Shown one piece after another: positions 42,902-45,273 of a stretch of 47,378 nucleotides of DNA (the first letter of the stretch is position 1; each line of letters begins with the position of its first letter). The stretch covers positions 1-47,378 of the forward strand of contig CALUVM010000015.1 in the NCBI GenBank assembly GCA_944324255.1, read 5' to 3'. Origin of the DNA: Candidatus Gastranaerophilales bacterium (GTDB taxonomy: Bacteria > Cyanobacteriota > Vampirovibrionia > Gastranaerophilales > Gastranaerophilaceae). A program made the translations under genes and the position numbers. Under the pieces are notes generated by a model. That model saw only the letters and a program-made list of their open reading frames with translations. It did no database searches and was not told the DNA's origin.

Positions 42902-43291
42902 ATGCAAAATCTTATCTGGTATAATACATTGGTTCAACCTGAATTTACACCGCCGGCGTGGGTTTTTCCGCCTGTTTGGACAGTTTTGTATTTAACCATG
43001 CTTATATCAGTTATTCTTTTTGGTATTAAACCTGCTTTTGAAAGTAAAAAAAGCGGTTATATATTATTTTTCAGCCAGCTTATAGTAAATCTTTTATGGA
43101 GTCCGGTATTCTTTTATTTAAAAAACCCTCCCGGAGCTTTATTTATAATACTAATACTGGATATTCTGGTATTTTTAAATATTTTATCATTTATTAAAAT
43201 ATCAAAAGCTGCAGGTTTAATTCTTCTTCCGTATTTTGTCTGGATAATATTTGCAACTTATCTTAATCTCGGGTTTGTTTTATTAAACTAA
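42902..43291 (+). CDS. TspO/MBR-family membrane protein, short form
   Basis: TspO proteins bind porphyrins and sterol-like ligands and respond to oxidative stress. The 129-aa product starts directly at the family motif (WYNTLVQPEFTPPAWVFPPVWTVLYL), and has AFFSQLIVNLLWSPVFFY, AGLILLPYFVWIIFATYLNLGFVLLN and two further helices. About 30 residues forming TM1 of ordinary 160-aa TspO are missing; only 53 nt separate this start from the prmA stop, so no room exists for it. A weak TATATT -10 is 8 nt before the ATG. Confidence 0.85.
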   Translation: MQNLIWYNTLVQPEFTPPAWVFPPVWTVLYLTMLISVILFGIKPAFESKKSGYILFFSQLIVNLLWSPVFFYLKNPPGALFIILILDILVFLNILSFIKISKAAGLILLPYFVWIIFATYLNLGFVLLN

Positions 43292-43297
43292 TTTTAT

Positions 43298-43556
43298 TGT
43301 AGAAAAAAATGTTCATAACTTGAAAAAAAATGTAGAAAACTTGTTAGTTTTCTACATAGCTTGTTTTTATATTTTCTATCTATGTAGAAAAATGTTCATA
43401 ACTCGTAAGTTTTCTACATTTTTTCTACATAGTTTTCTACATTAAAAATCCGCTATTTTTGATACTTTCAGATAGTTTTCTACAAATAATAAGAGCTTAT
43501 TATGATGATGATTAATTATATATATAAATATATTAAATAATAATAATATATTAAAA
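43298..43556. other. Candidate replication origin: DnaA-box-like repeats plus A/T-only DUE
   Basis: Eight TTTTCTACA copies: minus-strand starts at 43298, 43331 and 43383; plus-strand starts at 43348, 43410, 43421, 43433 and 43476. Two TTATGAACA sites (43310, 43393, minus strand) are further DnaA-box-like. A 46-nt stretch of A/T only (43511-43556) follows. The consensus differs by one base from TTTTCCACA, the cyanobacterial box, and by two from TTATCCACA. The block separates tspO from the next gene. No dnaA or dnaN is nearby. A regulator-binding array is the alternative. Confidence 0.6.
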
Positions 43557-43577
43557 GCTGACAAAAAAAATTTTTAG

Positions 43578-43593: not shown

Positions 43594-45273
43594 ATGAAAA
43601 TTTTAAAAATAAATCCTTATATAAATAGTACTTCTTTTAAATCTAAACCTGTTTTGACAAAAGCATTAAAAACTTCTAAAATTGACATGTTTTGTAAATC
43701 AAACGAGGTAAAAGAAGCTTTGAATAAAAATTTTGTTAAACTAAGAGATGAATTTTCTAAAAACTGGTATAAGTTATATCTAAAAAGCAGCTGCTGTGAC
43801 TGGAATTTTTATATAAATTCAACGGAAGAAAACCTTAAAAAAATGACTCTGGCTCAAGATGAATTTTCAAATCTTTTTCATAATAGAGAAGCTTATGAAG
43901 AATTTAAGAAAATAGATTCTTCAAAACTAAGTAAACATGAACAAAAACAACTAAAAAATATTCTTAAAAATTTTGAAGAAGAACTTGAAACAGGAGATGA
44001 TTTAAAACTTTTAAGAGAAAAAGAAAACCTGATAGCTAAAAAATATAATTCATTTGTACCCCGTATTGACGGTAAGGAAACTACAAAAACAGAAATTTCA
44101 AAAATACTTCAAACCGAACCTGATGAAGAATTAAGAAAAAAAGCATATCTTGCAAAACTTGAAGGCGGAGATTTAATAGCGGAAGATATTAGAGAATTTG
44201 TTAAACTAAGAAACAATTTTGCTCGAAAAAAAGGATATTCAAACTTTTTTGAATACAAACTTAAAGAAAATTATGAAGTAGAACTTCCGTATCTTGAAAA
44301 ACTTATAGATGAAGTTTATTCAAATACTAAAGACAGTATAAAATCAATTCTTGAGAAAAAACATCAGGAATTAAAAGACTTTTTTAAAACAGATAAATTA
44401 AAACAGTATCATTACGGTTATTTGACGGATTCTAATCCTGATAAATACTTAAATGAATCCATAAAAACCAGAGAACAGGCAGTTGATATATGTTTAAATA
44501 CCTATAAATCAATGGGATACGATATAGATAAACTTCTCGAAGAAAAAAATCTTACTCTTGATTTATTTCCAAGAAAAGGCAAGAATACCCACGGATTTTG
44601 TTTTAATATTGATGCCGGAAAAGATGCAAGAATCTTAGCAAATCTTACAAATGATATTAATAGCATAGATACACTAAACCATGAGCTGGGTCATTGTGTC
44701 TATACCCTTGGTGTATCAAGGGAACTTCCGTTTATAGATAGAGAAGAATATCCTGCCATGACAGAAGCTATAGCTATGATGATGGGTGATATAGTTAAAA
44801 AAGAAAATATTTTAAAAAATCTTGCAGAACCAAAAGTTTTTGAAGATTTTAAAAATACATTTAAAGAAAATGAAGCATCTTTTGTAACTAAAGCTTTGAC
44901 TATAATAGATTTTGAAAAAGAAATGTACAAAAACCCTGATCAGGATTTAAAAAAACTATGGCATGATATGAGGGTTAAATACCAGATTGCTGATAAAGAC
45001 GAACCAATTGACAATAGCTGGGCAACGATTCCTCACTATTTATCTCATCCAGCTTATTATCAAAATTATTTCAGAGCTTCTGTTATAAAAGCGCAGATTT
45101 ATAATTATTTAAAAACAAAACTCGGAAATATAAGTGAAAATAAGAAAACAGCAGAATTTTTGAAAGAAAATCTTTTTAAATACGGAATTTCTATGGAAGA
45201 AAATGAGCTTATTAAACAAATGACCGGAAAAGATTTATCTGCTAAAGATTTTATAGATAATATAGTTTTATAA
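43594..45273 (+). CDS. ACE-like (M2/M3) zinc oligopeptidase
   Basis: The 559-aa cytosolic protein has HELGH (363-367) and a third ligand E391 (PAMTEAIAM) 28 residues after the first His, the spacing of peptidase family M2 (angiotensin-converting-enzyme-like). C-terminal similarity includes HYLSHPAYYQNYFRASVIKAQI. It probably degrades oligopeptides. The N-terminus (MKILKINPYINSTSFKSK) is an extra MKI...F segment ahead of the fold. It overlaps comF by 6 nt at the convergent 3' ends. Confidence 0.85.
   Translation: MKILKINPYINSTSFKSKPVLTKALKTSKIDMFCKSNEVKEALNKNFVKLRDEFSKNWYKLYLKSSCCDWNFYINSTEENLKKMTLAQDEFSNLFHNREAYEEFKKIDSSKLSKHEQKQLKNILKNFEEELETGDDLKLLREKENLIAKKYNSFVPRIDGKETTKTEISKILQTEPDEELRKKAYLAKLEGGDLIAEDIREFVKLRNNFARKKGYSNFFEYKLKENYEVELPYLEKLIDEVYSNTKDSIKSILEKKHQELKDFFKTDKLKQYHYGYLTDSNPDKYLNESIKTREQAVDICLNTYKSMGYDIDKLLEEKNLTLDLFPRKGKNTHGFCFNIDAGKDARILANLTNDINSIDTLNHELGHCVYTLGVSRELPFIDREEYPAMTEAIAMMMGDIVKKENILKNLAEPKVFEDFKNTFKENEASFVTKALTIIDFEKEMYKNPDQDLKKLWHDMRVKYQIADKDEPIDNSWATIPHYLSHPAYYQNYFRASVIKAQIYNYLKTKLGNISENKKTAEFLKENLFKYGISMEENELIKQMTGKDLSAKDFIDNIVL

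Follow-up and report, generated by a model that had tools for sequence, protein, structure and literature searches.

A Chromosomal Replication Origin with a Variant DnaA Box and a Variant Unwinding Element Predicted in a Gastranaerophilales Bacterium

Introduction

The intergenic DNA near the right end of the stretch analyzed here (the window: 47,378 bp, the entire contig C15 of a 1.89-Mb assembly with 99% completeness) raises the question of whether a dense group of nonamers is the chromosomal origin (oriC) of a Gastranaerophilales bacterium and, if so, by which signal DnaA would open it. In the published layout, a DnaA box is followed by a spacer and then by 3'-GAT-5' DnaA-trios (PMC8287927). 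In the complex of B. subtilis, the trio guanine is bound by Arg202 and Glu228, and the amine of the central adenine by Asn187; strand separation in vitro survives a central A-to-C change but not a change to G or T, cells with a central C also grow better than cells with G or T, and recognition of other sequences by DnaA homologues was suggested as a possibility (PMC10721633). The box itself is recognized by domain IV, of which segment 432–435 was described as making base-specific contacts (PMC5043019). No paper pairing TTTTCTACA with DnaA, or Gastranaerophilales with "origin of replication", was found in the open literature, its absence elsewhere being unproven. The f and g numbers used below are working labels for families and genera; the genus of the window is g1, of family f1.

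Results

Box Array and A/T-Only Run

The array lies in an intergenic region of 302 bp (19% G+C). Its neighbors, both on the plus strand and outside the origin, are an ORF at 42902–43291, which by sequence recognition we take to be TspO-like, and an M3-type peptidase-like ORF at 43594–45273, which some sister species likewise have next to their array. A window scan located all eight exact TTTTCTACA copies that a preliminary description had reported on both strands of about 190 bp: they occupy 187 bp (43298–43484) in the orientation order - - + - + + + +, with minus-strand boxes at 43298–43306 (leftmost), 43331–43339 and 43383–43391 and plus-strand boxes at 43348–43356, 43410–43418, 43421–43429, 43433–43441 and 43476–43484, the last being trio-proximal and oriented to the A/T-rich side. 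Variant boxes TTATGAACA, probably weak, were found on the minus strand at 43310–43318 and 43393–43401. At matching array sites of sister species (L116, L118, L120, L124 and L130), as at 43310 and 43393 of the window, TTTTGAACA or TTATGAACA replaces TTTTCTACA, which suggests a second class of box.

The window contained 10 copies of TTTTCTACA against 1.26 expected, a number matched by none of 100 shuffles. The genome-wide count, proposed earlier as a check, gave 81 copies (39 + 42) versus 86 for the reversed-pattern control; hence, there is no general excess of TTTTCTACA in this genome. Same-strand pairs no more than 30 bp apart occurred in the 1.89-Mb genome only within the array at 43298–43484, and the Poisson expectation of eight copies per 187 bp in the whole genome was about 3 × 10−16. 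Neither dnaA (contig C5) nor dnaN (contig C4) is adjacent to the array, as had been noticed, and no box cluster was found at either gene.

The 46-nt A/T-only stretch noted after the boxes is real (43511–43556). It is the sole run of at least 30 nt in the window. At segment lengths of 46, 60 and 100 bp alike, the DNA of lowest stability in the 47 kb is found at this run, which is a probable DNA unwinding element (DUE). Thus, of the features defining an oriC that could be tested, both a genome-unique box cluster and an adjoining low-stability region on the expected side were present.

Homologous Arrays, GC Skew and Location

Of 117 genomes from the order Gastranaerophilales, 30 contained three TTTTCTACA copies with short gaps, and none contained the reversed pattern. 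In most of the 30 genomes, the array lies directly upstream of an ORF of about 373 aa, identified as dnaN by profile and position; arrays of TTTTCTACA and its variants (TTTTATACA, TTTTAAACA) precede dnaN in families f1, f2, f3, f4 and f7. On the 852-kb contig of genome G013 (family f7), GC skew was sampled in 10-kb windows: 16/16 lying left of 260 kb gave negative values and 24/24 beyond it positive ones, and the array is situated at this flip, at 262.87–262.97 kb. A skew switch of the kind proposed as a check was thus seen at the array of G013 and roughly in G018 (switch between ~30 and 60 kb, array at 49.3 kb), while the cumulative minimum of the window was at 41.8 kb, near the array start at 43.3 kb. 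Within genus g1, the picture varied between species: skew near the array had the expected sign in the own genome, G140, G125 and G121, but on both array sides was opposite to the expectation for an origin in G103 (L199–L200) and G134 (L205–L206). Since the signs conflict between species, local skew within the genus was dropped as decisive evidence. The direction of the named core genes (recA and others leftward, glnA rightward) was as stated; however, prmA, tspO and a XerC/D-like gene to the left of the array point rightward.

The unusual location of the array proved to be peculiar to this genus, its relatives keeping the array at dnaN. The distance from dnaN to the array was ~5 kb in G084 and ~80 kb in G094, the two lie on different contigs in G000, G103 and G106, and in the sister genus g15 (G096) the array, dnaA and dnaN are all found within 2 kb. 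A comparison with related genomes, also proposed earlier, showed that the array is conserved and its immediate gene neighbors differ between g1 species. The internal layout is kept, as seen from the offsets and strands of the boxes in the window (0-, 33-, 50+, 85-, 112+, 123+, 135+, 178+) and in L128 (0-, 21-, 33-, 50+, 84-, 111+, 134+, 177+); differences in array length in some g1 species amount to approximately one or two helix turns. Because many of the genes flanking the array in other g1 species are genes of the 47-kb window in a new order and orientation, we infer rearrangement around the origin, and long-range jumping of the origin is disfavored.

Box Sequence and DnaA Residue 433

All triple box clusters in the phylum sample were TTTTCCACA in cyanobacteria and TTTTCTACA in Gastranaerophilales. 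The preliminary remark that the box is one base off the cyanobacterial type thus applies throughout the order; the change is C6 to T, and C at position 5 is retained in the consensus. DnaA residue 433 (E. coli numbering) shifts at this level of the taxonomy too, from D, present in 16/16 cyanobacteria examined, to K, with a few N or R. The order-wide re-coding of the box is therefore matched, as a correlation in the sequences, by a change of residue 433, and the changes in DNA and DnaA would compensate each other. The DnaAs L171–L175, from the sister order f8, have T at this position (SNRTHSS). In G292, also from a sister order, TTTTCTACA is present inside an 18-bp tandem repeat, which may be unrelated to box arrays.

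Trio Element

In family f1, the last box is followed by a 12-nt spacer and triplets in register. In the window, the spacer AATAATAAGAGC (43485–43496), similar across the genus, precedes a minus-strand element at 43497–43514 that, read 3'–5' in the published layout (PMC8287927), is the deviant DnaA-trio series AAT AAT ACT ACT ACT AAT. Families f2, f3 and f4 carry plus-strand CTACTACTACTA, i.e., repeated 3'-GAT-5' on the minus strand, which corresponds to canonical trios, and the same succession of box, spacer and GAT trios was found at one cyanobacterial locus. Within family f1, G-first trios dwindle (TTACTACTACTA, TTATTATTACTA): they were present in 18/25 origins of other f1 genera and in 0/23 readable origins of g1, whereas central-cytosine trios (3'-ACT-5', 3'-TCT-5') were present in 6/25 and 22/23, respectively. 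Element lengths vary in steps of three. The spacing rule of the basal unwinding system (BUS), a box no more than 16 bp from the triplets, holds here with the 12-nt spacer; at least three successive central-adenine trios on the 3'–5' strand, the second BUS rule, were found in families f2–f4 and were absent from the own element, which nevertheless probably works like a BUS. A second lineage deviates as well: in its origins L049, L050 and L083, the last box is followed by the unusual element TTATTATCATGAAGT.

DnaA Pocket

Among g1 DnaAs, residue 202 was N and residue 228 was Q, N or R in 5/5 proteins and in 33/33 from another collection, with a possible overlap of species between the two sets. 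In the other Gastranaerophilales DnaAs (n = 37), R202 was present in 36 and E228 in 34. Of the BUS pocket residues N187, R202 and E228, the own DnaA has thus lost the last two and keeps N187, as do 30/33 g1 DnaAs of the second collection. In addition, R260 (E. coli R281, box VII) is A in 33/33 (L004, L297–L329), a position where the remaining DnaAs of the alignment retain arginine; none of the 33 has lost the arginine finger R264. One sequence of the g1 type, L323 (ONVC01000016.1), is titled uncultured Acinetobacter sp. RUG672, and this title is probably wrong.

In the DnaA tree, g15 stands beside g1 (support 1.0). Because R202 and E228 are both intact in the one g15 DnaA compared and the g15 trios are GAT GCT or ACT, central C may have preceded the changes in the pocket. 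Two further ideas about DnaA were considered and rejected: that a five-residue ISM insertion brought about the trio change, since it is also present in f1, f6 and f7 with ordinary trios, and that Q408H is exclusive to g1, since it also occurs in g2, g6, g11, g12, g10 and g8. The DnaAs of the lineage with TTATTATCATGAAGT (genus g7; L096, L109 and L113) have N187K, E228D and a long ISM insertion, which, together with that element, possibly represents an independent trio change. The L106 DnaA of family f6 has I in place of R202 and N in place of E183.

Discussion

In all likelihood, the array is the chromosomal oriC of the Gastranaerophilales bacterium, as the preliminary description had proposed: homologous arrays are linked to dnaN in the order, and the array of G013 coincides with a skew flip. 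Neither a skew switch elsewhere, nor numerous clusters, nor boxes of another type at dnaA or dnaN, the contrary results named beforehand, appeared. DnaA binding, unwinding and firing at the array are predictions made from the sequence. According to them, domain IV of a DnaA with lysine instead of aspartate at position 433 would bind the TTTTCTACA boxes; DnaA would then load from the rightmost box (43476–43484) over the 12-nt spacer onto the minus strand, where its pocket, no longer guanine-reading, would capture the central-cytosine trios (3'-ACT-5'), and the A/T-only region 43511–43556 would be opened for helicase loading. We lean slightly towards the view that the opening signal of g1 has been re-coded, with central-C trios read via N187 after the loss of R202 and E228, on top of the order-wide C6-to-T box and D433K. 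Since the altered trios and the altered pocket fall on a single branch, their agreement counts as one evolutionary coincidence, which published chemistry backs, and not as a replicated correlation. G-first trios are also missing from some genera whose pocket is intact.

The reading that comes next accepts a true origin in which the g1 triplets are not DnaA-trios at all: the trios would have been lost, the A/T-rich DNA would melt alone, and the constraint on the pocket would be relaxed. The joint disappearance of R202, E228 and R260 would be expected under such relaxation, and some family members have AAT-like triplets only. On the other hand, the triplets stand in register after the 12-nt spacer with lengths differing by three, central-C triplets are near-universal in the readable g1 origins, and N187 is mostly kept; trio loss is thus possible but appears unlikely. 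Somewhat more doubtful is the assumption that the C6-to-T change merely reflects an A+T-rich genome, with DnaA recognition unaltered. The genome does have a high A+T content, and boxes that deviate from the consensus, for example TTTTATACA, exist, but only position 6 changed while the C of position 5 was kept, and residue 433 shifts at the same level. It is very improbable that the GAT-like plus-strand repeat (GATGATGAT) is the element itself, engaged by DnaA on the opposite strand: its 5'–3' letters do read GAT, a complement image of the ancestral element, yet such reading requires reversed filament polarity with box orientation and spacer unchanged, and central-C reading fits the tested chemistry. 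Finally, a non-origin DnaA-binding locus (datA-like, DARS-like or an autoregulated promoter) with the origin elsewhere, which would explain the missing adjacency of dnaA and dnaN and the inconsistent skew of the genus, is scarcely tenable given a genome free of other box clusters even at dnaN and dnaA, the homologous arrays that relatives carry at dnaN and, in the case of G013, at the skew switch, and the DUE adjoining the array.

The cyanobacterial oriC of Synechococcus, Anabaena and Cyanothece (PMC4674748) likewise combines a box array with an A/T-rich stretch, and most relatives of the window resemble it in having the array upstream of dnaN with dnaA elsewhere. The window origin itself is not of the cyanobacterial type, as its box is TTTTCTACA instead of TTTTCCACA, its DnaA has K instead of D at position 433, and its array, unlike that of most relatives outside g1, is not next to dnaN. 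The B. subtilis BUS (PMC8287927, PMC10721633) shares with the predicted element a box facing it, the 12-nt spacer, in-register triplets followed by A/T-rich DNA, and a DnaA with Asn187 and the arginine finger; here, in contrast, cytosine replaces the central adenine, a G-first trio is absent, and Arg202, Glu228 and Arg260 are lost. Epsilonproteobacterial origins (PMC5043019) also have a lineage-specific box, for which changes in helix 5 of domain IV were proposed as the explanation; they have T for C at box position 5 with residue 433 described as conserved, whereas the box of the present array has its T at position 6 and goes with a changed residue 433.

The locus would thus be a known kind of object, an oriC, with a variant box and a variant unwinding element, the latter in a form that only laboratory work had previously suggested to be possible. 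If the reading of central-cytosine trios is true, nature would provide an example of the alternative trio recognition that work on B. subtilis mutants led to propose. Canonical GAT trios, eroded trios and central-cytosine trios, with matching changes in the initiator, form a natural series, which makes it testable how an essential protein and its DNA site switch their code without losing replication. For practical purposes, TTTTCTACA is a usable box for finding origins in metagenome-assembled genomes; a search guided by dnaN adjacency or by canonical trios would miss the origin in g1. The array locates the origin for an uncultured order of the gut and rumen, and many of the genomes of close relatives come from rumen collections.
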